DNA from: Halobacteriales archaeon QS_9_68_42
Lineage (GTDB): Archaea; Halobacteriota; Halobacteria; Halobacteriales; Haloarculaceae
DNA length: 23,185 bases
NCBI GenBank assembly: GCA_003022905.1
Contig: PXSE01000138.1
Span: 1-23,185, forward strand
Reading direction: 5' to 3'
In this document: positions 7,233 to 21,354 of the stretch, one piece after another
Layout: the number at the start of each line of letters is the position of its first letter
Position numbering within the stretch: the stretch's first letter is position 1
Notes under the pieces: generated by a model
The model's input: the letters and a program-made list of their open reading frames with translations, nothing else
Database searches by the model: none
What the model was told of the DNA's origin: nothing
Made by a program: the position numbers and the translations under genes

Positions 7233-7256
7233 CGTACCCTTCGTACTCGATGACGG

Positions 7257-7267
7257 GTAATAATACT
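7257..7267 (-). promoter_or_regulatory. TATA box of the winged-helix regulator
   Basis: The minus strand reads AGTATTATTAC about 30 bases before the ATG at 7232, a strong AT block in a GC-rich background. Confidence 0.5.
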
Positions 7268-7371
7268 TGTTGTTCCGATTTATTTTCAATAGTAATTACG
7301 AGGCGGCGGCGGCCGGGGGCGTCGCACCCACCGTTTTCGGAGCCGTCAGGCGGGTGAGACTACCCGAAGTC

Positions 7372-7381
7372 TCTTATAATC
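7372..7381 (+). promoter_or_regulatory. TATA box of pan
   Basis: TCTTATAATC, with purine-rich CGAAG just upstream as a possible BRE, is centred 25 bases before the PAN ATG. This predicts a leaderless mRNA starting at or next to 7402. Confidence 0.6.
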
Positions 7382-7401
7382 GTGGGCGCTACCTCGGGGC
7401 A

Positions 7402-8619
7402 ATGACAGACACTGTTGACGACGTCGACCTCCCGTACGAGGACGACGCGTCACAGCAGGAGAAGGTGGCGGCGCTCGAGGAGCGTCTCGAGATTCTCGAA
7501 CAACAGAACGAGGAGATGCGGGACAAGCTGCTGGACGCCAACGCCGAGAACAACAAGTACCAGCAGAAGCTCGAGCGGCTCACCCACGAGAACAAGAAGC
7601 TCAAGCAGTCGCCGCTGTTCGTCGCCACCGTCCAAGAGCTGACCGACGAGGGCGTCGTCATCAAGCAGCACGGCAACAACCAAGAGGCGCTGACGGAGGT
7701 CACCGGCGAGATGCGGGAGTCGCTCGGCCCGGACGACCGCGTTGCGGTGAACAACTCCCTATCCATCGTCAAGCAACTGGACGACGAAACCGACGTCCGT
7801 GCCCGGGTGATGCAGGTCGACCAGTCGCCCGACATCACCTACGAGGACATCGGCGGCATCGACGAGCAGATGGACGAGGTACGGGAGACCGTCGAGATGC
7901 CAATCAAGAACCCCGGGATGTTCGACGAGGTGGGCATCGACCCGCCCTCCGGCGTGCTGCTGCACGGCCCGCCGGGAACGGGCAAGACGATGCTGGCGAA
8001 GGCCGTCGCCAACCAGACCGACGCCACCTTCATCAAGATGGCCGGCTCAGAGCTGGTCCACAAGTTCATCGGCGAGGGCGCCAAGCTCGTCCGGGACCTC
8101 TTCGAGCTGGCCCGCCAGCAGGAACCCGCGGTCGTGTTCGTCGACGAGATCGACGCCATCGCCGCCAAGCGCACCGAGTCGAAGACCTCCGGCGACGCCG
8201 AGGTCCAGCGGACGATGATGCAACTGCTCTCGGAGATGGACGGCTTCGAGGACCGCGGCCAGATATCCATCATCGCGGCGACGAACCGCTTCGACATGCT
8301 CGACCGGGCCATCCTCCGGCCAGGCCGGTTCGACCGTCTCATCGAGGTGCCCAAACCCGAACACGAGGGGCGCGAAATCATCTTCGAGATCCACACCCGC
8401 GACATGAACGTCGCCGACGACGTCGACTACGCCGAACTCGCGGCGACGGCCGACGACGCCTCCGGCGCCGACATCAAGGCCATCTCCACCGAGGCCGGGA
8501 TGTACGCCATCCGCGACGACCGCACCGAGGTCCGGATGCATGACTTCGAGAACGCCTGGGAGAAAATCCAGCAGACCGACGAGGCCGTCGACGCCGAGGT
8601 CTCCAAGACGTTCGCCTGA
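7402..8619 (+). CDS. pan1: Proteasome-activating nucleotidase PAN (PAN1 type)
   Basis: Hexameric AAA+ ATPase that unfolds proteins and feeds them to the 20S proteasome. 405 residues. Domains: an N-terminal coiled coil (about 17-68), an OB-fold (about 70-140, with LFVATVQELTDEGVVIKQHG), then the AAA+ domain with Walker A GPPGTGKT (189-196), pore loop KFIGEGAK (221-228), Walker B VVFVDEID (244-251), sensor AATNRFD and arginine-finger region RPGRFDRLI, followed by the small helical lid. The C-terminus is EVSKTFA, not the canonical HbYX, as I recall for other haloarchaeal PAN1 proteins. The N-terminus MTDTVDDVDLPY is typical of PAN1 rather than PAN2. Preceded by a strong TATA box at leaderless distance, and followed immediately by a T-run. 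Confidence 0.95.
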   Translation: MTDTVDDVDLPYEDDASQQEKVAALEERLEILEQQNEEMRDKLLDANAENNKYQQKLERLTHENKKLKQSPLFVATVQELTDEGVVIKQHGNNQEALTEVTGEMRESLGPDDRVAVNNSLSIVKQLDDETDVRARVMQVDQSPDITYEDIGGIDEQMDEVRETVEMPIKNPGMFDEVGIDPPSGVLLHGPPGTGKTMLAKAVANQTDATFIKMAGSELVHKFIGEGAKLVRDLFELARQQEPAVVFVDEIDAIAAKRTESKTSGDAEVQRTMMQLLSEMDGFEDRGQISIIAATNRFDMLDRAILRPGRFDRLIEVPKPEHEGREIIFEIHTRDMNVADDVDYAELAATADDASGADIKAISTEAGMYAIRDDRTEVRMHDFENAWEKIQQTDEAVDAEVSKTFA

Positions 8620-8621
8620 AC

Positions 8622-8666
8622 CTTTTTGCACGCTCGGCGCGCCTGCGGCGCGACTCGCGGCAAAAA
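8622..8666 (+). terminator. T-run and inverted repeat after pan
   Basis: CTTTTTGC begins 3 bases after the PAN stop. TTTTTGC (8623-8629) is matched by GCAAAAA (8660-8666), a perfect 7-bp inverted repeat around a 30-base GC-rich spacer containing GGCGCGCC. The T-run alone could end archaeal transcription. The inverted repeat might also be part of a dispersed intergenic element. Confidence 0.4.
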
Positions 8667-8771
8667 CGTTCATGAAAAAGACACTACGGGCCTCCCTACG
8701 GTCGGCCCTTGGTCCCGCGCTCCTTGCGGTCGCGCGGCGAACCGCTCGCTCACGGTGTTCGCTCGCGGATG
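8667..8771. repeat. Repeat-like GC-rich intergenic stretch
   Basis: Non-coding gap with recurring CGCTCG/GCGG words. It includes GCGAAC (8737-8742) facing GTTCGC (8757-8762), a 6-bp inverted repeat with a 14-base spacer. Such CGCTCG-rich intergenic text recurs in many haloarchaeal genomes in my experience, but only one copy is in this window, so repeat status is unproven. Confidence 0.25.
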
Positions 8772-8791
8772 CTATTTGTCGACGGCCTCGC

Positions 8792-8935
8792 TCAGAACAG
8801 CAGGAAGATGGCGTAGGGGATTGCGAAGAGGAGCACCGTCATCACCCCGAGGATGAGACCGTAGGCGAGGAACGTCCCAGCGGCGGTGAACCACGCCGGG
8901 TGGTCGTACTCCTCCTTCAGGTCGGCAACGTCCAT
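8792..8935 (-). CDS. 47-residue single-helix membrane protein
   Basis: A small gene starting MDVADLKEEYDHPAWFTAAG, continuing as one long hydrophobic segment (about residues 16-47) and ending in IFLLF at the stop. The N-terminus is acidic and probably cytoplasmic; the helix extends to the last residue, as in many haloarchaeal one-helix proteins. A CATCTAAG box on the minus strand lies about 28 bases before the ATG (8933-8935), fitting a leaderless mRNA, and codon use (G/C at third positions) matches the neighbours. Function unknown; small size suggests an accessory subunit of a membrane complex, but nothing in the context names one. Confidence 0.7.
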   Translation of the reverse strand: MDVADLKEEYDHPAWFTAAGTFLAYGLILGVMTVLLFAIPYAIFLLF

Positions 8936-8958
8936 GTTTCGAAGTTCGGTCGCTGTCC

Positions 8959-8966
8959 CTTAGATG
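8959..8966 (-). promoter_or_regulatory. TATA box of the 47-residue membrane protein
   Basis: The minus strand reads CATCTAAG, centred 28 bases before the ATG at 8935. Confidence 0.4.
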
Positions 8967-8979
8967 TACCGCTCGACGG

Positions 8980-9975
8980 TCACGGGACGACGACCGCACG
9001 GCCCTCGACGTCGCCGGCCTCGAGTCGTTCGAGCGTCGCTGGCAGGTCCGCGAGGCCGACCGGCTCGACGTTGATTGACAGCCGTCCCTGCCGGGCGAGG
9101 TCCAGCACGTCCCGCAACTCCGCGGGATTGCCCCACTGGACGGTCCGGTAGGTCACCTCGCTGCCGACCAGCGGGTTCCAGGCGAACTCGATAGAGCCGC
9201 CGCCGATGCCCGCCAGCACCAGGCGGCCGTCGGCGCCGAGGACGTTGCTCGCCCACCGGAGCGTTTCGTCGGCCCCGACGAAGTCGACGACGGCGTCCAC
9301 CGGACCGCCGGCGGCGGCCTTGATATTGCGGGGAACGGAGCCGCCGGTCCCGACCGCCGCGTCGGCGCCCAGTTCCTCCGCCCGCCCGAGTTTCGCGGGG
9401 TCGCGGTCGACGGCGACGACCCGACAGCCCCACAGCCGGCCGAACTGGACGCCGAACGAACCGAGGCCGCCGACGCCGACCACCGCGACCGAGTCGCCCG
9501 GTCCTACGTCGGCCTTCCGGAGCGACCGATAGGCGGTCAGCGCGGCGTCGGTCAGCGGCGCCGCCTCCACGGGGTCCAGCCCCTCCAGCGGCAGACAGTA
9601 GTCCGCTGTTGGCACACGGACGTACTCCGCGTAGCCGCCGTCGCTACCGATACCGAGCCAGTTCGTGAGGTTGCAGAGCTGGTCGTCGCCGCGGGCACAG
9701 GTTTCGCAGTCCCGACAGCCCCATCCGCCGAAGACCGCCACGTCGGTCCCGGCCGCGAGATCGACGCCAGCGCCCGTCTCGGCGACGGTGCCGGCCACCT
9801 CGTGGCCCAGCACCCGCGGCTCGACCAGCGGCAGGTCCCCGTCCATGACGTGTAAATCGGAGTGGCAGACCCCGCAGGCGCTCACCTCGACGAGTGCCTC
9901 TCCGGTGCCGACGTCCGGGCGCGATACGTCCTCGACTCTGAGTCCCTCGCCCGGGTAGAAGCGCGCCGCTCGCAT
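8980..9975 (-). CDS. Zinc-dependent medium-chain alcohol dehydrogenase
   Basis: NAD(P)-dependent oxidoreductase of the MDR superfamily, 331 residues, full length. Catalytic zinc ligands: C37 (ACGVCHSD), H58 (LGHEVAGTV) and probably D143 (PLTDAALTAYRSL), where Asp replaces the more common Cys, as known for Rhodococcus ruber ADH-A. Structural zinc site: C87, C90, C93 and C101. The Rossmann motif GVGGLG is at 167-172, and D190 at the end of the second strand (VVAVDRD) suggests NAD rather than NADP. Substrate cannot be told; secondary or short-chain alcohols and aldehydes are likely. Stands alone, divergent from no obvious partner, between a small membrane protein and a DUF5800 protein. The ATG at 9973-9975 matches the usual N-terminus MRAARFYPG. 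Confidence 0.92.
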   Translation of the reverse strand: MRAARFYPGEGLRVEDVSRPDVGTGEALVEVSACGVCHSDLHVMDGDLPLVEPRVLGHEVAGTVAETGAGVDLAAGTDVAVFGGWGCRDCETCARGDDQLCNLTNWLGIGSDGGYAEYVRVPTADYCLPLEGLDPVEAAPLTDAALTAYRSLRKADVGPGDSVAVVGVGGLGSFGVQFGRLWGCRVVAVDRDPAKLGRAEELGADAAVGTGGSVPRNIKAAAGGPVDAVVDFVGADETLRWASNVLGADGRLVLAGIGGGSIEFAWNPLVGSEVTYRTVQWGNPAELRDVLDLARQGRLSINVEPVGLADLPATLERLEAGDVEGRAVVVP

Positions 9976-10015
9976 GGGTGGTAGGACGCCGCGCGGACAA
10001 AGAGCGTTCCGGTGG

Positions 10016-10213
10016 TCACCCCAGGATGTCGGCGATGCGTCGCGGCTCCTCGGTCAGGGCGGGGTCCTCCTCGACGAGTTGCAGCACCTCGTGGTCGGTC
10101 ACGTCCGGGTACTCCTTCCGGGTGGCCTCCTCGATGAGTTCCGCCTCGAGGCGGAACTCGGTGCCCTCGTAGATGACCTCCACGCCCTGCTCGTCGAACG
10201 AGAGAACGGTCAT
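10016..10213 (-). CDS. DUF5800 family small protein
   Basis: 65 residues, starting MTVLSFDEQGVEVIYEGTEF, then a helical EAELIEEATRKEYPDVTDHE, and ending in EPRRIADILG. This matches the small haloarchaeal DUF5800 family as I remember it; no function is known to me. It has a beta hairpin followed by helices, with no Cys motif or membrane segment, and is acidic as expected of a cytoplasmic haloarchaeal protein. The ATG at 10211-10213 has a strong CTTATAACC box centred 26 bases upstream, so the mRNA is probably leaderless. It runs in the same direction as the alcohol dehydrogenase, 40 bases upstream of it, and may be cotranscribed with it. Confidence 0.82.
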   Translation of the reverse strand: MTVLSFDEQGVEVIYEGTEFRLEAELIEEATRKEYPDVTDHEVLQLVEEDPALTEEPRRIADILG

Positions 10214-10233
10214 ACCACGGTTTGGCGACTGTC

Positions 10234-10244
10234 GGTTATAAGGG
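10234..10244 (-). promoter_or_regulatory. TATA box of the DUF5800 gene
   Basis: The minus strand reads CCCTTATAACC, centred 26 bases before the ATG. The rest of the 256-base gap up to 10469 shows only a tandem CTGACAC repeat (10434-10447) and a facing GTGTC (10450-10454), with no gene. Confidence 0.55.
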
Positions 10245-10469
10245 TGGCTGGTCGGAACTGTCGGGTCGGGGGCGCCGTCGGGTCGTCTGCGGCCCGGACT
10301 CGGACCGACGGACGGGTATCGCGGACGGGACGCTCCCGGCACGAGCGGCGTCACGGCAGGAACGCGACGGAGTTTCCCCTCCCCGTCGCGGGGGGGTGCC
10401 CTCGCGAGCGCATCGATGGCCCCGGTATGCATTCTGACACCTGACACAAGTGTCTGTGGGCCGCAACGG

Positions 10470-10974
10470 CTACTGCATCGCGTCGGACGGGATTTTGAAC
10501 GCGACCGCGTACAGGAACTCCTTTTCACATATCTCGTAGCCGACCCGATAGAGTCCGGGGTCGTTGGTGACCGGCCAGACGGTCACCGGTTCAAGCGCCT
10601 CCACGACGGGCGCCGCGGCGACCGTGCCCGCGACCAGTTCGAGGGCGGCCGACTCGACGGCGTCGTACGGGCGGCCGGCGGCCGGCAGCGGCGTGTGGTC
10701 GTTCAGCTCCATCAGTTCGCTCGCGGCTGCCACCGTGTCGGGGTGGCTCTCCGCCGCGTTGGCCTCCGTCTGGCACTCGATCATTAATGACCCGTTCCGG
10801 TAACTGGACCCAAGTTCCACCCTTGAGGGGCCCGAAATCGATGCTCCGGAACGGCACCGCGCCGCCAGGGTCGGCGGCCTCAATGATGTCCTCCAGAAGC
10901 AAGCGGGCGGCCTCCCGGTGTGCCTTCAACAGCTCCCCACTCCGGTAGCCCCTGACGTCCCGGTCGATGATCAT
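10470..10974 (-). pseudogene. Unknown protein gene interrupted by a frame shift at 10785
   Basis: Two coherent protein pieces lie in adjacent frames. The first starts at the ATG 10972-10974 (MIIDRDVRGYRSGELLKAHR), continues through FRSIDFGPLKGGTWVQLPER, and then turns into non-haloarchaeal Arg/Gly-rich text. The second, in another frame, runs from about 10784 (MIECQTEANAAES, then LMELNDHTPLPAAGR) to the stop at 10470 (KIPSDAMQ). Removing the single base at 10785 (minus strand ATTAATG to ATTATG) joins them as LPERVIMIECQTEAN, giving a continuous acidic protein of about 167 residues. Only the first piece has a promoter: an ATTTATCT box 25 bases upstream. No family recognised. It may be a real pseudogene, a sequencing error, or less likely two genes; programmed shifting has no obvious slippery site. 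Confidence 0.68.
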
Positions 10975-10994
10975 CCGTACCTCTGTTCGACCTC

Positions 10995-11002
10995 AGATAA
11001 AT
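10995..11002 (-). promoter_or_regulatory. TATA box of the interrupted 10974 gene
   Basis: The minus strand reads ATTTATCT, centred 25 bases before the ATG at 10974. It shares the 155-179-base divergent gap with the bactofilin promoter. Confidence 0.5.
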
Positions 11003-11094
11003 GTACCGTCCGACACTGCGCGGCCGTCGAGAGCGCCCGCGTCACCGGCCCGGCCCGCTTCGGGCGTGCCCGCTCGATTGCAGGACTGCGAAAC

Positions 11095-11112
11095 GTCTGA
11101 CGCGCGTCAGAC
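11095..11112. promoter_or_regulatory. Perfect 18-bp palindrome, possible operator
   Basis: GTCTGACGCGCGTCAGAC is its own reverse complement. It lies between two divergent promoters, about 11 bases upstream of the bactofilin TATA-like box and about 92 bases before the minus-strand TATA box. A dimeric regulator or an upstream activator site is plausible; the binding protein is unknown. Confidence 0.45.
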
Positions 11113-11122
11113 TCCGGGGTGG

Positions 11123-11131
11123 ATTTAATAT
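11123..11131 (+). promoter_or_regulatory. TATA box of the bactofilin gene
   Basis: ATTTAATAT is centred about 27 bases before the GTG at 11154, favouring that codon over the ATG at 11130, which would lie inside the box. Confidence 0.45.
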
Positions 11132-11153
11132 GCGGCACGCGCCATTGCCCACC

Positions 11154-12195
11154 GTGTTCGGCTCCGACCCGCTCGAGGAACTGGTGATTCCCGACGACAC
11201 ACACGTCAAGGAGCACGACCTCGACACCGAGGGGGACGTGCTCGTCGGCGGGCAGAGCACCGTCGAGCTGGGGGTGCGCGGGGACAATGTCATCGCCGGC
11301 GAGCGTGTGGAGTTCGGCGGCGACATCGAGGCCGAGAGCGACTGCCGTCTCGACATGTGGTGTGACGTCGACGGCAACGTGCTCGTCGGCCAGGACGCCT
11401 ACCTCGGCGAGCGGGTCCATATCACCGGCCAACTCATCGTCTCCGGGGACCTCGACATCGGCGACGACGTCGACATCGAGCGCGGCTTCGAGGCCAACGG
11501 CTGGATCGTCATCCGCAACCCCATGCCCACCATCGTCTTCCTGTTCGTCTACCTCTCGCAACTCCTCCGAATCGGCGAGGAGGAAGCCGCCGAGGAGGTC
11601 GCCGAGGAGTTCTTAGCCGACGACCGCGAGGTCGAACCGGTCGTCGTCCCGCGGGGCGCCGACGTGTCCGACGACGCCTGGCGCGTCTCGACGCCGGCGA
11701 CGGTCGGCGACGACTGCCGGATGCACGGCAACGTCCGGGCGACCGACCAGCCTCCGCGCCAAGGAGGACATCCGCGTCGGCTCCGGCACGGTCGTCCACG
11801 GCGACGTGACCACCAAGGGCGGGAACGTGGTCGTCGCTCCCCAATCCCACGTTCGCGGCGACATCTCCTGTGAGGACTGCGACCTCTCGGAGGCCGCCGA
11901 GGTCGACGGCGCCATCCGCGCCCGCGGGGAGACGAACTTTACCGCCGTCCCCCAGGGGTTCAACGCGACGGCCGGCGCCGAGGCCGAGTCGACAGCGACG
12001 CCGACCGACGGCGAGAGCGAGGAGACGGCGGCCGACCTCGAGGCCGCCGTCGTCCCGTTCGGGACGGGCGAACTGGCGGCCGATGCGCTGCCCGCCATCG
12101 TCCCGCTCTCGGAGGGCGAACTGGACTGGGACGACCCCGCGGCGACCAACGGCGACGGCGTCGAGGGCGTCATCGCGGACGCCGAAAAGCGGTGA
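11154..12195 (+). pseudogene. Bactofilin-like polymer-forming protein, frameshifted
   Basis: Bactofilins build filament-like scaffolds from a right-handed beta-helix. The first frame starts at GTG 11154 (FGSDPLEELVIPDD) and shows beta-helix rungs with DVLVGGQSTVELGVRG, GNVLVGQDAYLGERVH and GDLDIGDDVDIERGFEANGW. Then comes a hydrophobic NPMPTIVFLFVYLSQLL segment, and rungs resume at VGDDCRMHGNVRA (11730). From 11749 the rungs continue in another frame: SLRAKEDIRVGSGTVVHGDV and VRGDISCEDCDL, then an acidic tail to the stop at 12195. Rungs here repeat every 18-19 codons, but NVRA and SLRA are only 19 bases apart, so about 35 bases seem missing; alternatively one extra base at GACCGACC. Each half alone would lack part of the helix. 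The bactofilin call is good; the cause of the shift is open. Confidence 0.78.
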
Positions 12196-12267
12196 CAAAG
12201 CGAGCGACTGCCGGACGCCCTCAAGTGGTAGCTGCCGGGCAATCGAAAGGCAGTTCGGCCCCCTCGC

Positions 12268-12278
12268 CCCAGGAGTGG
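12268..12278 (+). promoter_or_regulatory. Ribosome binding site of ychF
   Basis: CAGGAGTGGT contains GGAG five bases upstream of the ATG at 12280, complementary to the 16S rRNA 3' end. This gene therefore seems to use a leader, or to follow the bactofilin gene on one transcript (84-base gap). Confidence 0.45.
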
Positions 12279-12279
12279 T

Positions 12280-13407
12280 ATGCTCTCGGTCGCCCTCGCC
12301 GGCAAGCCCAACGCCGGCAAGTCGACGTTCTACCGGGCCGCCACCATGGCCGACGTCGACGTCGCCAACTACCCCTGTCTGGACCTCGAGTCGCGGTGCG
12401 ACAACAACAACTGCCACGACGGCAAGCGGTACGTCCCTATCGAGTTGCTGGACGTCGCGGGGCTGGTCCCCGGCGCCCACGAGGGGAAGGGCCTCGGCAA
12501 CCAGTTCCTCGATGCGCTGTCGAACGCCGACGTCATCCTGAACGTCGTCGACGCCTCCGGCGGCACCGACGCCGAGGGCGAACCGCTCGAGGTCGGCGCC
12601 TACGACCCCGTCCAGGACGTCGAGTTCATCGAGACGGAGATGGACCTGTGGCTGGCCTCCATCGTCGAGGACAACTGGGAAACCGTCGAGCGTGGGTCCC
12701 GCTCGCCGGAGTTCGACTTCGAGGACGCCCTGGCGGACGTACTGACCGGCGTCGGCGCCACCCAGTACGACGTGATGGCCGTTCTCCGGGAGATGGACTA
12801 CTCGACGGACCCGATGGCCTGGACCGACGCCGACCGCGAGGAACTGGCCCGCCTGGTCCGCCAGCGCACGAAACCCATCGTCGTCGTCGCCAACAAGGCT
12901 GACATCGCCCCCGCCGAGAACATCGAACGGCTCGAGGCGGCGGCCGGCCACGTCGTCCCCTGCACCGCCGAGGGCGAACTCGCCCTCCGGCAGGCCGTCG
13001 AGGCCGGCGCCGTCGCGTACGACCCCGGCGACGACGGCTTCGAGATAACGGCCGACGTCTCCGACTCGCAGGCGGGAGGACTGGAGCGCATCCGCGGCGT
13101 CGTTGAGGCGTTCGGCGGCACCGGCGTCCAGACCGCGCTCGATGAGGCCGTCTACGACCTGCTGGACCACTTCACCGCCTACCCGGTCCAGGACGCCACG
13201 AACTGGACCGACGGCCAGGGCAACGTCCTCCCCGACGCGTTTCTCCTGCCGAACGGGTCAACGCCGAAGGACCTCGCGTACGCTGTCCACTCCGACATCG
13301 GCGAGGGCTACCTTCACGCCGTCAACGCCCGCGCCGACCGTCGCATCGCCGAGGACCACGAACTCGACGAGGGCGACGTGGTCAAGATCGTCTCGACGGC
13401 GAACTGA
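12280..13407 (+). CDS. ychF: YchF/OLA1-type GTPase with an internal deletion
   Basis: Redox- and ribosome-linked translation-factor GTPase of the Obg-related YchF subfamily. 375 residues versus about 390-395 expected. G1 GKPNAGKS (8-15), G3 DVAGLVPGAHEGKGLGNQFL (from D58) and G4 NKAD (205-208) are present, and the C-terminal TGS domain is intact (TPKDLAYAVHSDIGEGYLHA, DEGDVVKIVSTAN). At residues 30-33 the text goes from NYP straight to CLDLESRC. Relatives have about 18 more residues here (NYPFTTID, then GVxxVRTxCPCLD), which hold switch I and the G2 threonine. The frame is kept. Without G2, nucleotide hydrolysis should be impaired, so this is either a non-functional allele or a sequence artefact. 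Confidence 0.9.
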   Translation: MLSVALAGKPNAGKSTFYRAATMADVDVANYPCLDLESRCDNNNCHDGKRYVPIELLDVAGLVPGAHEGKGLGNQFLDALSNADVILNVVDASGGTDAEGEPLEVGAYDPVQDVEFIETEMDLWLASIVEDNWETVERGSRSPEFDFEDALADVLTGVGATQYDVMAVLREMDYSTDPMAWTDADREELARLVRQRTKPIVVVANKADIAPAENIERLEAAAGHVVPCTAEGELALRQAVEAGAVAYDPGDDGFEITADVSDSQAGGLERIRGVVEAFGGTGVQTALDEAVYDLLDHFTAYPVQDATNWTDGQGNVLPDAFLLPNGSTPKDLAYAVHSDIGEGYLHAVNARADRRIAEDHELDEGDVVKIVSTAN

Positions 13408-13457
13408 CCCGGCGGCGACGGCTTCCGCCTGCGTATGATATTAGTGGCTCCAGCCGT

Positions 13458-13625
13458 ATGTTGAACTGTACCATGTGCCATGGCTTCGACATCCGTGACC
13501 GACGCGAGTTCGAGCGCGAGGAGTCCGACGACGAGCGGCCGTCGTTCGCCAATGAGGAGGCGAGCGTCGAGACCGAGGTGCTGACCGACGGCGGCGACGA
13601 CGAGGAAGCGGAAGCCGAGGAGTAG
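13458..13625 (+). CDS. Small acidic protein with one CxxC pair
   Basis: 55 residues starting MLNCTMCHGFDIRDRREFER, then a strongly acidic disordered stretch ending in DDEEAEAEE. One CxxC pair and a His near the N-terminus could bind a metal, but a second pair is missing, so a full zinc ribbon is unlikely unless the protein dimerises or is truncated. An AT-rich TATGATATTA box begins about 23 bases upstream of the ATG at 13458. ATG 13473 (MCHGF) is an alternative start. I do not recognise the family. The acidic composition and GC-rich third positions favour a real gene. Confidence 0.55.
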   Translation: MLNCTMCHGFDIRDRREFEREESDDERPSFANEEASVETEVLTDGGDDEEAEAEE

Positions 13626-13749
13626 TCCCCGGCGGTCGGATTCGGACTCGAACCTTCGACTTTCTTTCGCCGACGCGCTGACAGTGCCGGGACCCGCGAT
13701 GAGCCGACGGCCCGGCTGCCGGGCCCGCGCACCGCTCCGGGTGCGGGAA

Positions 13750-13759
13750 GATTTATGTT
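13750..13759 (+). promoter_or_regulatory. TATA box for the 13782 gene
   Basis: GATTTATGTT is centred about 27 bases before the ATG at 13782, which selects that codon over the ATG at 13755 that lies inside the box. Confidence 0.5.
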
Positions 13760-13781
13760 GCCGTCGGGAAAATTGTGGGAC

Positions 13782-14021
13782 ATGGCATCGGGGAACGAAC
13801 TCGCTCTCTACGGCTTCCTGTCGCTGGTGGCGGTCCTGCTCGTCCTCATAACCGGGCCGCTCGGGCTCATCGCGATTCCGTTCGCGCTCATCATCGTCGG
13901 GTTCGCGAAGATGAGCACGGAGTCGGACGAGGAGTCGACAGGGCCGGTCAACTGTCCCGACTGTGGCGCCCCGAACGAGCCGGGGGCGGAGGTCTGTCAG
14001 CACTGCGACGAGACGCTCTGA
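13782..14021 (+). CDS. Membrane-anchored zinc-ribbon protein
   Basis: 79 residues. Two closely spaced hydrophobic helices (about residues 6-22 and 25-41, LALYGFLSLVAVLLVLITG and LGLIAIPFALIIVGF) are followed by a short acidic linker and a C-terminal zinc ribbon NCPDCGAPNEPGAEVCQHCDETL with four cysteines in CxxC pairs. The ribbon is on the same side as the N-terminus, probably the cytoplasm. Such double-helix plus zinc-ribbon proteins are common in haloarchaea, and their role is not known. The start was chosen from the TATA position. It converges with the UbiA gene 13 bases downstream. Confidence 0.75.
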   Translation: MASGNELALYGFLSLVAVLLVLITGPLGLIAIPFALIIVGFAKMSTESDEESTGPVNCPDCGAPNEPGAEVCQHCDETL

Positions 14022-14034
14022 AGCCGGCCGGCGG

Positions 14035-14883
14035 TCACGCCAGCCACACCGCGGCGACCAGCACCGCCAGAAAGAGGTACGACCCGCGGATGAGGAGTTT
14101 CGTCGCCAGCGAGGCGTCCCCGCCGGCCCGCCAGGCGAAGGCGGCGACGACGCCGAACACCACCGGCGCGAAGACGCTGGCCGGCGGGAACACGCCGGCG
14201 ACCGCGAGCACGACCACCCCGACCATCCCCGCCGCCATCAGGCCGTAGGCGAACCGGTGGGCACGCCTGGGGCCGAGCAGGACCGCGACGGTCCGCTTCC
14301 CGATGGAGCGGTCGTACCCGTAGTCCTTGGCGTCGTCGATTGTCTTGATGCCCGAGAGGATGACGAGGAAGATAACGGCGAAGGCGACGACGGTGGCCGA
14401 CAGCACCGCCGTCTGCACGTAGTAGCCGCCCAGAAGCGCGAAGGCGATGCCCGCGGGGTAGCCCGCGGTCGCGCCCACCGGGTTGAGGTCGAGTTGCGGC
14501 GCGTGGAGGTAGCCGATGACCCACCCCGGCAGGGTCAGCAGTGCGGCCCACGGGTCGACGAGCAGGCTGATGGCGAGAAGACAACCGAAGAACACCGCCG
14601 TCGCCCCGGCGAGGGCGGCTCGACAGCCGACCGCGGTCAGGGGATGATCGTCGTCCTCGCCGCGGCGGTGGAAGTCGACGTAACCGTCCTTGATGTGGGC
14701 GGTGTAGAGGGCGGCGAAGGCGGCGGTCAGATGCAGCGCCAGCAGCGCGACGTCGAGACCGTCGGCCAGTACGGCGCCGAACGCAGAGGCCGCAAGCGGG
14801 GGCAGCATGAACACCGGGTGCACCTGCGACGCGAGCGCGCCGACGTCGGCCCGGACGCCTCGCCCGTGGCGTGCGATTGCCAT
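14035..14883 (-). CDS. UbiA-family prenyltransferase
   Basis: Integral membrane enzyme that moves a prenyl chain from its diphosphate to an acceptor. 282 residues, about eight or nine helices. The first Asp-rich motif is AHIKDGYVDFHRRGEDDDHP (residues about 62-81) and the second is KTIDDAKDYGYDRSIGKRT; the Asp residues bind magnesium and diphosphate. Between them are the usual GYLHAPQLDLNPVGATAGYP loop and transmembrane helices. The acceptor cannot be told: candidates in haloarchaea are menaquinone (DHNA), lipid (GGGP) or other aromatic acceptors, and no menaquinone genes are adjacent. The ATG at 14881-14883 has a GTAATTAG box about 26 bases upstream. Confidence 0.88.
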   Translation of the reverse strand: MAIARHGRGVRADVGALASQVHPVFMLPPLAASAFGAVLADGLDVALLALHLTAAFAALYTAHIKDGYVDFHRRGEDDDHPLTAVGCRAALAGATAVFFGCLLAISLLVDPWAALLTLPGWVIGYLHAPQLDLNPVGATAGYPAGIAFALLGGYYVQTAVLSATVVAFAVIFLVILSGIKTIDDAKDYGYDRSIGKRTVAVLLGPRRAHRFAYGLMAAGMVGVVVLAVAGVFPPASVFAPVVFGVVAAFAWRAGGDASLATKLLIRGSYLFLAVLVAAVWLA

Positions 14884-14904
14884 ACCCCACCTACGACGGG
14901 GGCA

Positions 14905-14912
14905 CTAATTAC
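14905..14912 (-). promoter_or_regulatory. TATA box of the UbiA gene
   Basis: The minus strand reads GTAATTAG, centred 26 bases before the ATG at 14883. The remaining gap to 15046 (about 130 bases) shows no gene. Confidence 0.4.
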
Positions 14913-15046
14913 TCTACGGCCGGCGGTCAGGGGCGTGTCATCGGCCGCGCGCAGCGAGGCGCAGTCCGCGAGCGGTCGGCCCCGTTCGAGGTCCCGCCCG
15001 ACGCCGGGTGACCGGCCGGCTCTCGCATAACTAAACACGGTGGCGG

Positions 15047-17227
15047 TCAGCGCCGGACCTCGTAGATGGTGACGTCGCCTCGCTGGAAGGCCACCTCGAG
15101 GTCCGGGTGGTCGGTGACGGCGAGGTCGTAGCTGTTCCGCTCGACCGGGCCGACGTAGACGTACTCGACGCCGTAGCGGTCGAACAGCGCCGACTGCTCG
15201 TCGGTCGACCCCTCGTAGAGGGTCCGGACGTCCGAATCCCGGCGGTCCACGAGTTCGGCGTCGCGGCGCTGTCGCTGCTGAAACACCGGCCCGCCGAGCA
15301 CCGTCGGATGGCCCGTGAGGCTCGCGGGCGCCGAGGCGCCGTTCCCGTCCTCGGGTTGCCACCGGTACCCCCCGGGAGCCATCACGATGGTCTGTCGACC
15401 CGGTTGCCGGTTCAGCCACTCGATTGCGGCCGCCTCGTCCGGGTAGAGCGCGTCGGCGTAGGCCGTCCCGTCCAGCGTCGGCCCGTCGGCGCCGACCGGG
15501 TCGTTGTCGAGCTGTGCAGGCACGACGAAGCCGGCGTACAGCCCGGTCAGCAGCACGACGGCGACCGTCAGGGCGGTGCCGGTGCGCCTGAGGCGGTCCC
15601 GGCCGATGTCGACGTCCAGCGACGGCCGCCCTCGGGCCAGCACCGGCAGCAGGGCCGCGGCGGCGACCGACCAGAACAGCCAGATGTGCGCGTAATACTT
15701 GAAGATGATGTTGAACCGCTCGCCCTCAAGACTGACCAGTTCCACGAGCAGGACGAGACCGGCCCCGGCGGCGACCAGCACCAGCGGGAACCCGGTCTCC
15801 GGCCGGTCCCGGAGCAACCACCACCCGGCGACGACGAGCGGCACCGTTAGGCCGACCGCGGGCGCGCCCAGCGCGGTCGTGACCCCGATGACGGCGACGC
15901 CGCCGAGCAGCACCGCAAGCGGCGGAATCCGGTCGGTCGAAAGCCGACGGGCGACGTACGCGGCGAACACCGCGAGGAAGGCCCCGTGGACGACGAGCAG
16001 CGGCCCGAGTCGCGCCCACTGGTCCCAATAGACGACCGTCTGGTCGGGACCGCCCGCGACGACGCCGACCCAGTACGGCAGCGTCCAGGCAATCGCGCCG
16101 ACGAGGACGGCCAGCGTCCCGGCGAGGGCGACCCCGAACCGGGCCGCCTCCTCGGCGGCGGCGTCCCGCTCCTCGAAGAGCCCCTCGCCGTGGGAGTTGA
16201 GCAGCGCGGTCGGCTCCCCGGGCGCGAACGCCAGCGCCAGGAGCGTGACCGCCAGTACGGTCGGGAACGACCAGATGTTGAACAGGGCGACGAGGCCGAC
16301 GACCGGCGGCAGGGCACCGAACAGGGCCAGCCGGCGGGTCCGGGTGTCGCCGAGCCAGTAGCTGAACAGCAGGGCGACGGCCAGCAGGGTGAACGGCTGG
16401 CTCATCATGTGGGCGTGGAGGTCGCCGTTTATCCAGGCGAAAAGCGGGAACTCGGTCGCCGCCAAGCCGCTCGAGGGGTCGTCGGGCCGGATGTCCATCA
16501 CCCGGCTGGCGGCGAAGTAGCCGAACTCGCCGGTGACGTCCGTGGGCGTCCAGGAACTCGCGCCCTCGGGGACGCCCGGCGCCGACGAGACGAGGCCGTC
16601 CGGGAGCAGCCACCCCAGGACGTTCGCGGCGGTGTGGAGGTTGCCGGCGACGCCGACGAAGAACGCGCCCAGCCCGGCCGCCGCCCGCCGCGGCACGTCC
16701 TGGGCCGACCCGAGGGCGCCGGCCAGCCCGAGCGCCAGGAGCGCCGACAGCATGTGGCCGCCGTAGTGGTACTTGACGGCCTCGCCGGCGAACCACACGT
16801 CCTCGGGCGGGAGCGCGTCGGCCCGGAGCGAGGCTTGCAGTAGCCCCACGTCGAGCATCTCCTCGCCGATGTCGACCGGCAGGGGCGCGATGGCGGGGTT
16901 CGCCGCGCGGATTGCGATCATTAGCAGGAAGGCGGCGGCGAACACCGCCGACGCCTCGGCGAACTCGCGGGAATCGACGGCGTCGCTGTCGCCGAGGAGA
17001 CCGCTGGCGAGGACGAGCGCCGCCAGGCCAGCGACGAGCGCGGGCCACCCAAAGGCGAGGTGCCCGACCAGGTGGCCGACGACGGCGACCACCGCGAGGC
17101 CGACCGGGACGGCGAACGCCGCCCCCGAATCGTCGAACCGGGGGAACAGCGCCCCGACCAGCGGGAGCGCGGCCACCCCGACGACCAGGTACGTCGCCAG
17201 CCACAGCACGACGAGCCCGTACTCCAT
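15047..17227 (-). CDS. DUF2298 (YYY-type) polytopic membrane protein
   Basis: 726 residues with many transmembrane helices and a soluble C-terminal domain from about residue 600. Matches the DUF2298 family of archaea and Chloroflexi: GLLQASLRADALPPEDVWFA, KYHYGGHML, FFVGVAGNLHTAANVLGWLL, EFPLFAWINGDLHAHMMSQP and RFNIIFKYYAHIWLFWS. The family resembles lipid-linked sugar glycosyltransferases (GT-C fold), but its substrate is unknown. After HMLSALLA the protein goes almost directly to GLAGALGSAQ, whereas relatives have about 25 more residues containing an AYNLALA segment, so an in-frame loss near residue 165 (about 16730) is suspected. The start ATG 17225-17227 has a GGTTTACG box 27 bases upstream; two in-frame GTG codons directly precede it. 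It diverges from the GT2 gene. Confidence 0.88.
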   Translation of the reverse strand: MEYGLVVLWLATYLVVGVAALPLVGALFPRFDDSGAAFAVPVGLAVVAVVGHLVGHLAFGWPALVAGLAALVLASGLLGDSDAVDSREFAEASAVFAAAFLLMIAIRAANPAIAPLPVDIGEEMLDVGLLQASLRADALPPEDVWFAGEAVKYHYGGHMLSALLALGLAGALGSAQDVPRRAAAGLGAFFVGVAGNLHTAANVLGWLLPDGLVSSAPGVPEGASSWTPTDVTGEFGYFAASRVMDIRPDDPSSGLAATEFPLFAWINGDLHAHMMSQPFTLLAVALLFSYWLGDTRTRRLALFGALPPVVGLVALFNIWSFPTVLAVTLLALAFAPGEPTALLNSHGEGLFEERDAAAEEAARFGVALAGTLAVLVGAIAWTLPYWVGVVAGGPDQTVVYWDQWARLGPLLVVHGAFLAVFAAYVARRLSTDRIPPLAVLLGGVAVIGVTTALGAPAVGLTVPLVVAGWWLLRDRPETGFPLVLVAAGAGLVLLVELVSLEGERFNIIFKYYAHIWLFWSVAAAALLPVLARGRPSLDVDIGRDRLRRTGTALTVAVVLLTGLYAGFVVPAQLDNDPVGADGPTLDGTAYADALYPDEAAAIEWLNRQPGRQTIVMAPGGYRWQPEDGNGASAPASLTGHPTVLGGPVFQQRQRRDAELVDRRDSDVRTLYEGSTDEQSALFDRYGVEYVYVGPVERNSYDLAVTDHPDLEVAFQRGDVTIYEVRR

Positions 17228-17250
17228 CACCACACCCGGCGGCGCCGGCC

Positions 17251-17258
17251 CGTAAACC
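17251..17258 (-). promoter_or_regulatory. TATA box of the DUF2298 gene
   Basis: The minus strand reads GGTTTACG, centred about 27 bases before the ATG at 17227. Confidence 0.35.
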
Positions 17259-17323
17259 TCTTGCGGAGTCGACGTTTTCGGGGAATCGAACCGCTTTTGC
17301 GGACCCCGGCGCGAGGGAGTACC

Positions 17324-17980
17324 ATGACCCGCCTCGGGGTCGTTGTTCCCGCCTTCCGCCCGGACGTCGGCCGCCTGGAGTCGTACCTCCGGGACCTGGC
17401 GGCCGAACTCGACCCGGCGACGCTCCGGGTCGAACTCGACGACCCGGCCGCCGCAACGCTGGAAGCCCTCTCCGCACTCGAGATGTCCGCCCTGGAGGTC
17501 GACGCCGTCCCGTACCGTCGGGGGAAGGGCGCGGCCGTCACCGCCGGCTTCGAGGCGCTCTCGACGGACCGGCTGGCGTTCGCCGATGCCGACGGCAGCA
17601 CGCCCGCCGCCGAGGTCCGGCGCGTCGTCGACGCCCTTGATGAGGCCGGTGTGGTGGTCGGCTCCCGGCGGCACCCCGACGCCGAGGTGGTCGGCCACCG
17701 GACGTTCGCCCGACGGTTCCTCGGCGACGGCTTCGCGTGGCTAGCCCGCCGCCTGCTCGAGGCGGACCTGTACGACTACCAGTGCGGCGCGAAGGCGCTC
17801 TGGGAGGACCGCCCGGGATCGACCGTCTCACCGGTCCGGACGTCGCTGTCGATGGCGACGGCGCTCTTCGTCGCCCGCCACCGCGCGAAACGGCTCGGGA
17901 ACAGCCCGCTCCACGACGCAATCGCGCGCGGCGAGGAGCCGACGGCGCTCGTCGAACGGGGGAGCCACAGGCGCCGATGA
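17324..17980 (+). CDS. GT2 glycosyltransferase (dolichyl-phosphate mannosyltransferase-like), shortened
   Basis: Transfers a sugar from a nucleotide donor, probably to a polyprenyl phosphate. 218 residues. GT-A fold: LGVVVPAFRPDVGRLESYL (first strand), the nucleotide-binding YRRGKGAAVTAGFEAL, metal-binding FADADGS (DAD at 88-90), GSRRHPDAEV and FLGDGFAWLARRLLEADLYD. At YQCGAKALWEDRPGSTV (junction at residues 159/160, about 17800) the chain skips the segment that relatives have between CGAKAL and WEDRPGSTVSP, roughly 35-45 residues with the GFAWDVELV acceptor-site motif. The frame is kept. If real, the enzyme should be inactive or altered. The 3' end overlaps the GtrA-like gene by four bases (ATGA), so they form an operon. 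Confidence 0.88.
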   Translation: MTRLGVVVPAFRPDVGRLESYLRDLAAELDPATLRVELDDPAAATLEALSALEMSALEVDAVPYRRGKGAAVTAGFEALSTDRLAFADADGSTPAAEVRRVVDALDEAGVVVGSRRHPDAEVVGHRTFARRFLGDGFAWLARRLLEADLYDYQCGAKALWEDRPGSTVSPVRTSLSMATALFVARHRAKRLGNSPLHDAIARGEEPTALVERGSHRRR

Positions 17981-18519
17981 CGACGGCCGACCCCGACGAG
18001 ACGGCCATTGACGCCGACGAGGAGGCCGGCGGCGGCGAGTACGGCCCCCTGGCGGCGCTCCAGGACCGGCTTCGGGCGCTGGCGACCGCCGAGCGCGTCG
18101 GCCAGTTCGTCTCTGTCGGCGTCGCCGGCGCCACCCTCGAGACGGTCATCGTCGCACTGCTGACCAGCGGCGTGCTTGCGACGACGGCGCCGCCGCTCGC
18201 GGCGAAAGCCGTCGGCGCCGAGGCCTCGATCACCCTGATGTTCCTGCTCAACGACCGCTGGACGTTCGCCGACGAGGGCGAGGGCGGCATCGTGTCGCTT
18301 CTGGGCCGGTACGGCAAGTCGCACCTCGTCCGCCTCGGCGGCCTCTCGGTGGCGTTCGCGGCGCTTTTCGTCCTCACGTCGCTGACGGACGTCCGGCTTC
18401 TCGTCGCCGGCGCCGACCTCTGGCCCACGGTCGCCAACGGCATCGCCATCGGCGTCGGCATGGCGCTCAACTACGTCGCCGAGAGCCTCCTCACCTGGCG
18501 GGTCCACGACGCGCGGTAG
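17977..18519 (+). CDS. GtrA-family membrane protein
   Basis: 180 residues. After an acidic 45-residue leader there are four hydrophobic helices: VGQFVSVGVAGATLETVIVALL, AAKAVGAEASITLMFLLN, VRLGGLSVAFAALFVLTSL and VANGIAIGVGMALNYVAESL, with the loop LNDRWTFAD and the ending LLTWRVHDAR typical of GtrA. GtrA proteins are thought to flip or hand over polyprenyl-phosphate sugars. It overlaps the upstream GT2 gene by ATGA, so the pair probably makes and moves a polyprenyl-phosphate sugar, feeding glycosylation outside the membrane (inference). Appears complete, unlike its GT2 partner. Confidence 0.9.
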   Translation: MTTADPDETAIDADEEAGGGEYGPLAALQDRLRALATAERVGQFVSVGVAGATLETVIVALLTSGVLATTAPPLAAKAVGAEASITLMFLLNDRWTFADEGEGGIVSLLGRYGKSHLVRLGGLSVAFAALFVLTSLTDVRLLVAGADLWPTVANGIAIGVGMALNYVAESLLTWRVHDAR

Positions 18520-18547
18520 GATTCCACGGACGGCACCCATATCACAA

Positions 18548-18557
18548 CCCTTAATGG
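18548..18557 (+). promoter_or_regulatory. TATA box of the initiator tRNA
   Basis: CCCTTAATGG is centred 27 bases before the mature tRNA 5' end, matching an archaeal tRNA promoter. Confidence 0.5.
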
Positions 18558-18579
18558 GCACAGCGGAGTAGCATCTGGT

Positions 18580-18654
18580 AGCGGGATGGGATAGCCAGGA
18601 GATTCCGCCGGGCTCATAACCCGGAGACCGGACGTTCAAATCGTCCTCCCGCTA
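18580..18654 (+). tRNA. Initiator tRNA-Met (CAT)
   Basis: Complete cloverleaf of 75 bases. Acceptor stem AGCGGGA/TCCCGCT with discriminator A at 18654. The anticodon arm CCGGG-CTCATAA-CCCGG puts CAT at 18615-18617, and the T arm is GGACG-TTCAAAT-CGTCC. The A1-U72 pair and three consecutive G-C pairs next to the anticodon loop are marks of an archaeal initiator, not an elongator or Ile-CAT tRNA. CCA is not encoded (ACTCC follows). No intron. Confidence 0.95.
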
Positions 18655-18669
18655 CTCCCCTTCGATTCG

Positions 18670-18939
18670 TCACTCCTTGCTGCTCACCACCTCCAGATCG
18701 CCGTCCGTTCGCCGGACGTACAGCAGGACATCGGCCGTCCCCGACTCGTCGACGTCGTTTAGCTCCGGCGCACACCCTATCATCCCGACCTCGTTGAACC
18801 CGCAGGCGTCACAGACGGCGTCCTCGCCTCGCGGCTCGTAGCCGCTCTCTCGCTCGACTGCCGGAAGGTAGCCCGTGTCGGCGACCTTCTCGCCGCAGAC
18901 CGAACACGTCGGGGTCGCCGGCGTTGACGTGAGTTCCAT
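18670..18939 (-). CDS. Small zinc-binding protein with two CxxC pairs
   Basis: 89 residues. TCSVCGEKVADTGYLPAVER, then AVCDACGFNEVGMIGCAPEL: the two CxxC pairs about 31 residues apart form a probable zinc ribbon. The C-terminal half (ADVLLYVRRTDGDLEVVSS) is a beta-rich strand pair, and an extra Cys (IGCAP) is near the second pair. Cytoplasmic; no function recognised. The ATG at 18937-18939 is preceded by a CTATTTTTG box about 26 bases upstream, so leaderless. The gene is convergent with the initiator tRNA, 15 bases from its 3' end. Confidence 0.78.
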   Translation of the reverse strand: MELTSTPATPTCSVCGEKVADTGYLPAVERESGYEPRGEDAVCDACGFNEVGMIGCAPELNDVDESGTADVLLYVRRTDGDLEVVSSKE

Positions 18940-18960
18940 GTCCGTCCTTTGGCGGGACGG

Positions 18961-18970
18961 CAAAAATAGC
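18961..18970 (-). promoter_or_regulatory. TATA box of the zinc-ribbon gene
   Basis: The minus strand reads GCTATTTTTG, centred 26 bases before the ATG at 18939. Confidence 0.5.
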
Positions 18971-19055
18971 TCTCGGCCGGTGGTCGGGGGCCGGCCTCGC
19001 TCGGCCTGCCCGGAAGGGCAACCTTCTCGGTGGCGCCGCGAGGACGGCCACACAT

Positions 19056-20180
19056 ATGCGACACAGCACACCGGCCGCGACGGTGGGCGTCGTCGGCGGG
19101 GGCCAGCTCGGCCGCATGCTCGGGGAGGCGGCGGGGCCGCTCGGCGTCGAGGTAATCGTCTCGGACCCGACGCCGGACTGCCCGGCGGCGCCGGTCGTCC
19201 GCGACCAGGTCGTCGGCGGCTTCGATGACCGGGCGGCGGTCCGCCAACTCGCCGAGCGGGCGGACGTCCTCACCTTCGAGATAGAGCTGGCCGACCCCGA
19301 CGAGATGGCGGCGGTGAGCGAGGCGACGGGCACGCCGGTCCACCCCGACCCCGACACGCTCCGGACCATCCAGGACAAGCTTGTCCAGAACCGGGCACTG
19401 GCCGACGCCGGGATTCCGGTTCCGGCGTTCCGCGGCGTCGACACCGCCGCGGAACTCCGGGTCGCCGGCGAGGAACTCGGCTGGCCGCTGATGCTCAAGG
19501 CTCGGGAGGGCGGCTACGACGGCCGAGGCAACTTCCCCGTCGAGGGCCCCGACAACGCCGAGGACGCCATCGCCGAGGCCGGCCCGGCGCTGGCCGAGGA
19601 ACTGGTCGACTTCGAGCGGGAACTCGCCGTCATCGGCGTCAAGGGTAATGACGAGGTGCGAGCGTTCCCGGTCACCGAGACGGTCCACGAGGAAGAGATT
19701 CTGCGGGAACTGGTGACGCCGGCTCGGACCGACCCGGCGGTCCGCGAGCGCGCACGGGAGGTGGCCTTCGACGTGCTGGAGACCCTGGACGGCCGCGGCG
19801 TCTACGGCATCGAACTGTTCGAACTGGCGGACGGCGGAATCCTGGTCAACGAGATTGCCCCGCGGCCGCACAACTCCGGGCACTGGACCATCGAGGGCGC
19901 CCGCTCCTCGCAGTTCGAACAGCACGTCCGGGCGGTGCTCGGGTGGCCGCTCGGGTCGGCCGAGCGGCGGTCGTCTGCGGTGACGACGAACCTCCTCGGG
20001 GACGTCGAGAAGCCGGAACCCGTGGAGCTGTCGGGCGTCGAGGCCGTCCTCGAGGAGCCGTCGGCGTCGCTGCACTGGTACGGCAAGCGCGAGGTCCGGC
20101 CGCTCCGGAAGATGGGCCACGTCACGCTGACGGACGCCGACGCCGACGCGGCGACGCTGACCACCAGCACGTACGCGTAG
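19056..20180 (+). CDS. purK: N5-carboxyaminoimidazole ribonucleotide synthase, 3' end replaced
   Basis: ATP-grasp enzyme that carboxylates AIR with bicarbonate in purine synthesis; PurE acts next. 374 residues. N-terminal VGVVGGGQLGRMLGEAAGPL (nucleotide fold), then RTIQDKLVQNRALADAGIPV and KAREGGYDGRGNF (ATP-grasp), VYGIELFELADGGILVNEIA and PRPHNSGHWTIEGA (metal and substrate site). The conserved C-terminal RKMGHVTLTD is present, but the last residues (about DAATLTTSTYA) are antisense to the CPBP gene's codons for NNLYAYVLVV. Relatives run some 20 residues further after MGHVT. The true 3' end therefore seems lost at about 20150-20165, although all catalytic parts remain. ATG 19056 gives the usual start. 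Confidence 0.92.
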   Translation: MRHSTPAATVGVVGGGQLGRMLGEAAGPLGVEVIVSDPTPDCPAAPVVRDQVVGGFDDRAAVRQLAERADVLTFEIELADPDEMAAVSEATGTPVHPDPDTLRTIQDKLVQNRALADAGIPVPAFRGVDTAAELRVAGEELGWPLMLKAREGGYDGRGNFPVEGPDNAEDAIAEAGPALAEELVDFERELAVIGVKGNDEVRAFPVTETVHEEEILRELVTPARTDPAVRERAREVAFDVLETLDGRGVYGIELFELADGGILVNEIAPRPHNSGHWTIEGARSSQFEQHVRAVLGWPLGSAERRSSAVTTNLLGDVEKPEPVELSGVEAVLEEPSASLHWYGKREVRPLRKMGHVTLTDADADAATLTTSTYA

Positions 20181-20860
20181 AGGTTGTTGAGCGCGTGTAG
20201 CAGCCACGCGCTCGTCAGGTCGTCGAAGTATAGCCGCAGCGCCGTCGGGAGGATGCCCCACACCGTGGTGTAGACGACGCCGGTGGGACCGAGGCTGACG
20301 ATGTGCATTGCGCCGAACAGCACCACGACGACGGCGCCGGCGGCGACGGGGTGGAGGCCGCGGGCGAGCAGCGCCCCGAGCAGGTACCCCCGGAACAGGG
20401 CCTCCTCGACCAGCGGCGCGAGGACGACGCTGCCGACGACGATTATCGCCACGGTGGTCGGGTCCGAGAGCGCGTAGTCGAACCCTTCCATCGGCGGGAG
20501 GCCGACGGCCTCGGCGGCCGCGGTGACGACCGGGAACAGCAGAACCCCGGCGACGAGCGCCGCCAGCGTCGCCGCCACCTCGCGAGCGCTCGGGCGGTCG
20601 AACGCGAAGACGGCCCGCCGACCGGACTCCGAGAGCCGGAGACAGAGCCCCGCGCCGACGACCGCCAGGGCAGCGCCGTAGACCAGCGAGGCGTCGGCCG
20701 ACGTGTACGCCCGGCCGCCCCCGGTGGTGACGGCGTGGACGGCGAAGGCCAGCGACGTGAGGGCGATGGGTAGGTACGCGAAGGCCGTACTTTCCGCAAC
20801 ACGGCCCCGGAGCGGTGCGAGCGACTCGGCGGACGGGAACTGTGGCTGGAGGGTGGCCAT
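19802..20860 (-). CDS. CPBP-family (CAAX protease-like) membrane protein, stop codon lost
   Basis: Intramembrane metalloprotease-like protein with about eight helices. Motifs: APLVEEALFRGYLLGALLAR (EExxxR), VLFGAMHIVSLGPTG (second His motif) and WLLHALNNLYAYV (HxxNN). The ATG is at 20858-20860. Real protein text covers 20160-20860 only (about 234 residues); beyond YAYVLVV the frame has no stop and runs 360 bases antisense through purK (SVAASASASV and on) to 19802. Convergent genes do not normally overlap like this, so a deletion at about 20160 that removed both 3' ends is the simplest reading. Role of such CPBP proteins in haloarchaea is unknown. If translated as is, it carries a long nonsense tail. 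Confidence 0.75.
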   Translation of the reverse strand: MATLQPQFPSAESLAPLRGRVAESTAFAYLPIALTSLAFAVHAVTTGGGRAYTSADASLVYGAALAVVGAGLCLRLSESGRRAVFAFDRPSAREVAATLAALVAGVLLFPVVTAAAEAVGLPPMEGFDYALSDPTTVAIIVVGSVVLAPLVEEALFRGYLLGALLARGLHPVAAGAVVVVLFGAMHIVSLGPTGVVYTTVWGILPTALRLYFDDLTSAWLLHALNNLYAYVLVVSVAASASASVSVTWPIFRSGRTSRLPYQCSDADGSSRTASTPDSSTGSGFSTSPRRFVVTADDRRSADPSGHPSTARTCCSNCEERAPSMVQCPELCGRGAISLTRIPPSASSNSSMP

Positions 20861-20910
20861 TCGGCGGGGCAACGGCGGCCTCCGGGTTCAACCCTCCGGA
20901 ATCCGGTGGA

Positions 20911-21354
20911 CTACTCGACCGTCAGCCGGCCCATCGTGGTCTGCTCCGTCTCGCCGTCGCTGGCGTGGACTCGAAAGTCATACCCGCCGAGCGGTGCGTC
21001 CGCCGCGGCCCGGACTGGGAGGCGGACGGAGACGCGCCGGGCGGTCTCCCACCGCCAGACGGGCGGCTCGACATCCCAGACTATCTTCGGGTCGGGGTCG
21101 AGGTCGGCCTCGCCGAACAGGAATTCGACGGGCGCCGTCCCGCCGGGGTCGGCGGCGCTCGGCCGGTCGGCCACGCGGAGGTGGAGCGTCGCCGCGGCCT
21201 CGATGGGAACCGGGGCGGTTTCCCCGCGTTCGACGGTCGTGTCGCCGACCGAGAGTCCGCTCTCCGGTCGGTATCCGGCCGAGCAGCCGGCGAGGGCGAC
21301 GCCGACGAGGCCGGTGCTCCCGGCGAGCGTCGAGAGGTACGAGCGGCGTTTCAC
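20911..21354 (-). CDS. Secreted lipoprotein, unknown function
   Basis: 147 residues. The N-terminus KRRSYLSTLAGSTGLVGVAL has the basic residues and hydrophobic core of a signal peptide, followed by the lipobox LAGC with the anchor cysteine at residue 24. The rest is beta-rich and acidic (VERGETAPVPIEAAATLHLR, then VRLPVRAAADAPLGGYDFRV), resembling a small immunoglobulin-like extracellular domain. Start GTG 21352-21354; a GACATATACC box lies 28 bases upstream, fitting leaderless initiation. No enzymatic motif. The lipoprotein call is good; the function is not known. Divergent from purE. Confidence 0.8.
   Translation of the reverse strand: MKRRSYLSTLAGSTGLVGVALAGCSAGYRPESGLSVGDTTVERGETAPVPIEAAATLHLRVADRPSAADPGGTAPVEFLFGEADLDPDPKIVWDVEPPVWRWETARRVSVRLPVRAAADAPLGGYDFRVHASDGETEQTTMGRLTVE

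Follow-up and report, generated by a model that had tools for sequence, protein, structure and literature searches.

We compared contig PXSE01000138.1 of Halobacteriales archaeon QS_9_68_42, a complete stand-alone contig of 23,185 bp from a haloarchaeon close to Natronomonas (hereafter, the window), with related haloarchaeal genomes and found that it lacks five short stretches of DNA, of 32, 54, 78, 120 and 80–82 bp, that Natronomonas-like relatives carry, and that one further gene is split by a +1 frame shift. Judged from sequence comparison, the five losses are in all likelihood local assembly errors, and probably so is the frame shift: the observation holds, but the biology does not follow from it. 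We favour this reading because the losses are private to the contig, measure 32–120 bp and are of a kind found in three of four fragmented draft genomes and not between isolates, and because the affected ychF, DUF2298 and glycosyltransferase genes are otherwise open and 94–96% identical to their nearest intact relatives. The original prediction had left a choice between frequent short deletions in this lineage and gaps in the assembly, and it is the latter that is now better supported.

All relatives compared are haloarchaea in or around Natronomonas, including N. marina (G434), N. salina (G338), N. halophila (G294) and N. gomsonensis (G432). We use ‘isolates’ for named species on contigs of megabases and ‘drafts’ for the fragmented genomes G315, G440, G371 and G435. 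The nearest genomes compared are G440, G315, N. marina, G371 and G435, whose DUF2298 genes are 74–85% identical to that of the window, and the DNA of N. marina is 74–88% identical along the window, depending on the aligned piece.

The first loss, of 32 bp at 11747/11748, shifts the frame of a β-helix or bactofilin-like scaffold gene (11130–12192, forward strand), whose family matches are weak and fall under the Pfam cut-offs; the gap recurs against all four relatives that could be placed at this junction. Next to it, ychF (12280–13407, forward strand; 375 residues; PF08438, PF01926 and PF02824) lacks 54 bp, or 18 codons, at 12372–12376 against all five relatives placed, roughly 15 residues past what we take to be its first nucleotide-binding motif. 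As a separate observation, the interval between the scaffold gene and ychF (12196–12244) is shorter than 50 bp in the window and about 580–630 bp in G315 and N. marina, while G440 and G371 align through it without these 580–630 bp. Farther along, a DUF2298 membrane protein gene (15047–17224, reverse strand; 725 residues; PF10060) lacks 78 bp (26 codons) at 16730, as judged from three relatives, and a family 2 glycosyltransferase gene (17324–17980, forward strand; 218 residues; PF00535) lacks 120 bp (40 codons) at 17800, a junction that was placed on one relative only. Database entries identical to these last two proteins sit on a contig of 23,185 bp, exactly the length of the window. The losses of 54, 78 and 120 bp, foreseen as in-frame from the window alone (that of 78 bp as a probable one), are borne out by the relatives’ DNA.

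The last loss, at 20158–20160, removes the ends of two convergent genes, as had been proposed: purK (19056–20180, forward strand; PF02222 and PF17769), whose frame runs on past the junction into its neighbour, and a gene for a CPBP/Rce1-like membrane protease (20153–20872, reverse strand; PF02517). This junction is comparable in two genomes, with 80 bp gone relative to N. marina and 82 bp relative to the closer G435, whose flanks are 92% and 96% identical to the window. The whole stretch from purK to the CPBP gene (19002–21125) is 91–96% identical to G435, while the other aligned pieces are 76–84% identical; the two species may have exchanged this DNA recently, or one of the two contigs may be mixed.

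Two frame shifts had also been called. The one at 11740–11752 corresponds to the 32-bp loss; the one at 10785 was misplaced, as the small gene at 10473–10974 (reverse strand) carries a +1 shift at about 10826–10840 and not a loss. Its two overlapping frames jointly match a single continuous frame in N. marina (L078), G315 (L074) and G371 (L075), and no Pfam family was found for the 10473–10883 frame.

Among the relatives compared, conserved sequence is absent from this contig alone. For three of the proteins we considered the best 120 relatives of each search. YchF has extra residues at the loss site in 120 of 120 listed relatives (18 residues in each of the 12 printed), and the closest is 93.6% identical outside the gap. 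The stretch missing from the DUF2298 protein is kept in 118 of 119 listed relatives by multiple alignment (at least 18 residues; closest relative 95.9% identical outside the gap), and that missing from the glycosyltransferase also in 118 of 119 (at least 25 residues; closest relative 95.0% identical). The glycosyltransferase exception, P0274, is a 181-residue protein on a 1,301-bp contig that leaves the family two residues past the loss point of the window, probably through a frame shift. By a cruder pairwise placement, 7 of 119 DUF2298 rows seem to lack the segment; one of these is a 517-residue fragment (P0164), and we read the other six (754–759 residues) as an effect of gap placement. At the DNA level, the stretches that span 16730 and 17800 do not vary in length between N. 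marina and the six other genomes in which they were found. It had been pointed out that close relatives with the same protein lengths and junctions would turn these lesions into normal family variants; instead, the listed relatives keep the longer forms, the short form is not common to the listed close relatives of ychF, DUF2298 or the glycosyltransferase, and we found nothing in favour of that explanation, which is scarcely credible within these lists. Nor do these three genes look like decaying pseudogenes, as they carry no further stops or shifts and their frames are open from end to end outside the gap.

To place these losses against a background, we counted one-sided gaps of 20–300 bp with clean flanks, comparing the window and pieces of the four drafts with 800 kb of N. 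marina (identity cut-off of 72%) and isolates with each other (70%). The aligner returned three losses of at least 50 bp in 20.4 kb of the window (78, 123 and 80 bp, the second of which is 120 bp on closer alignment). A fourth is the ychF gap, which the aligner had split into 27 and 20 and which we joined by hand; similar splits could hide events elsewhere. Between isolates, in three pairs that share genomes, there were no gaps of at least 50 bp in 333 kb in either direction, and those found measured 20–48 bp. Against the upper bound that this sets for isolates, the rate in the window is higher (P = 9 × 10−4 with three events and 4 × 10−5 with four), more than chance would give. The four drafts together show 12 losses of at least 50 bp in 316 kb (2 in 121 kb of G315, 7 in 100 kb of G371, 3 in 44 kb of G435 and none in 50 kb of G440). 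These measure 58–130 bp, and for 11 of the 12 at least one third genome bears out the loss. In G371, a 61-bp loss could be set beside no third genome and falls only in part within a coding-like frame, and a 63-bp loss falls at a site where relatives differ by 3 bp.

The genes hit in the drafts point the same way. The gene corresponding to N. marina dnaK (PF00012) lacks 60 bp in G315, in frame, and 58 bp in G435, out of frame; purK in G435 lacks 59 bp, again out of frame; and the gene for PAN, the proteasome-activating nucleotidase, lacks 87 bp in G315 (L074, 9425) and 120 bp in G371 (L075, 14980), in overlapping places, the latter loss taking in what is presumably the second nucleotide-binding motif. 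Survival with a DnaK damaged in this way is unlikely. Because cells would hardly tolerate the losses in dnaK and PAN, we read these as errors, and the same reading is therefore favoured for the window. G315, G371 and G435 thus resemble the window in having one-sided, private losses where other relatives keep the segments, and differ from it in that losses are less frequent across the four drafts.

Several observations weigh against assembly error. The rate in the window is higher than that in the drafts (P = 0.06 with three events and 0.014 with four), and G440, the nearest relative, has no loss of this size. That the drafts are metagenome assemblies is itself suggested by their fragmentation. 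Differences from N. marina are not losses alone, because the window and the drafts also carry seven extra stretches of at least 50 bp (one in the window, two in G315, one in G435 and three in G371), and the isolate pairs show no difference of this size in that direction; where the sites were found in N. gomsonensis or N. halophila, the extras were wholly or partly missing, the most retained being 45 bp of a 137-bp stretch and 41 bp of a 73-bp one. Three of the four intragenic losses in the window are in frame (P = 0.11), as are 8 of 16 in the window and drafts combined (P = 0.13), a weak hint of selection. For the drafts by themselves, an apparent bias of 5 in 8 fell to 5 in 12 once more of G371 was included (P = 0.37), with 11 of these 12 losses lying wholly in a coding-like frame. 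Finally, the 10-kb cluster is not a strong signal by itself: a range test gives P = 0.06 to 0.10 for the five losses and 0.04 for the six lesions, which are weak grounds for more than a loose clustering.

The sequences at the junctions offer no cause. Four of the five window junctions share 0–1 bp and only that of ychF shares 4–5 bp (with 4, 5, 3, 1 and 2 relatives placed per junction, in order of position). Deletion by slippage between small direct repeats, the mechanism originally suggested, would resemble the present case in the shortness of the losses, but it is not supported, as four of the five junctions are free of repeats. In the scaffold, DUF2298, glycosyltransferase and purK segments, the four tested, GC content and folding are ordinary, with only part of a segment folded where the aligner had overlapped. 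Among 11 draft gaps of at least 30 bp examined in the same way, a 48-bp gap in G371 folds more stably than 93% of random windows, a 130-bp gap in G435 more stably than 88%, and a 60-bp gap in G315 is AT-rich for its genome. Stretches conserved between species were also considered as break points and rejected, as the mean identity of segment minus flanks varied between −8.7 and +8.5 points among the 13 segments compared and showed no trend. Thus neither repeats nor hairpins nor shared conserved stretches account for the losses.

Real, recent deletions would imply a burst of short losses in one population, in which the cell tolerates damage to ychF, purK, the glycosyltransferase and others, although the genes hit are generally held to be indispensable. 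The in-frame share, the excess over the drafts and the microhomology at ychF all speak for such a burst. It would nevertheless need five distinct events in the recent past, all inside 8.4 kb, that leave ychF, DUF2298 and the glycosyltransferase otherwise open, each removing sequence retained by almost every listed relative, at junctions mostly free of repeats and at a rate unseen between isolates; we consider it very unlikely. The specific version in which faulty end joining, for example, produced mostly repeat-free deletions of 30–120 bp in a Natronomonas-like population before selection cleared the damaged cells is, in our judgement, highly improbable. The mre11–rad50 genes, about 6 kb from the losses, appear intact.

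Artefacts could arise in more than one way. Under the assembly-error reading, stretches of 32–120 bp would have been absent from the assembled fragments, and two fragments would then have been joined end to end, the uncovered stretch being dropped at the join; random short gaps in coverage closed in this manner would be the best-fitting cause. A possible variant, in effect a subtype of the same explanation to which we give a minor share, is that the record once had runs of N between paired contigs, which were later removed. The junctions mostly without overlap, the placement of the losses irrespective of conservation and the lack of any N in the window would fit it, but we see no direct sign of it. 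Alternatively, a skipping polymerase or wrongly merged read pairs may have created molecules without their middle that a thinly covered contig then adopted. Such chimeras would account for losses of 30–130 bp without long repeats and would agree with thin coverage, but ordinary depth would outvote them and none of the four window segments tested is odd in folding or GC content, so we regard them as unlikely.

Local assembly errors have a precedent. Chen et al. 2020 (PMC7111523) report that they occur in metagenome scaffolds, with IDBA-UD the assembler most suspected, define them as joins whose sequence has no perfect support from any read, and describe a worked case in which a 1.13 Mb genome had 13 of them. 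As described there, such errors likewise disrupt protein-coding genes through short faulty segments within scaffolds. The worked case has far fewer errors per kb than the five losses in 23 kb seen here, and its errors are defined by read support, whereas the losses here are seen by sequence comparison.

The genes in the first 10 kb and purE had been described as full length, which stands for Rad50, PAN (7267–8619, forward strand; PF00004 and PF16450), the gene at 6972–7238 and purE, and stands less well for the Mre11 region, where small gaps of 5, 3 and 9 residues separate the window from N. marina. Rad50, PAN and the 6972–7238 gene have no gaps of at least three residues against N. marina, with PAN 91% identical and gap-free from 7312. 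A dehydrogenase gene (8980–9975), compared as DNA and not in its own frame, aligns through at 81% identity. A search of plasmids gave one record that matches ychF and four that match over a tRNA (77–113 bp). Two further structural differences were seen. At 658–911, between two genes, about 254 bp are absent in G315 and G371 and nearly so in N. gomsonensis, and no source for them was found beyond matches of 24–28 bp in the relatives’ DNA examined. In G315, the part of L074 (contig C4, 8129–16412) that matches window positions 6970–14965 has the opposite orientation to that in the window, N. marina and G371; about 70 bp (window 14965–15038) stand at both ends of the inverted part in opposite orientation, and this may be a true inversion or a misassembly.

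Counting one-sided gaps against a finished relative reveals errors of this type without access to reads. As an artefact, the finding matters solely because it warns that six of this contig’s genes, and perhaps a seventh, are misrepresented. The scaffold gene, ychF, the DUF2298 gene, the glycosyltransferase gene, purK and the CPBP gene should for now be regarded as misassembled and their proteins not used as they are; the lists searched contain many intact relatives of these genes. Similar losses occur in three draft relatives, those in dnaK, PAN and purK among them. Claims about gene loss or essentiality based on drafts of this kind would be wrong.

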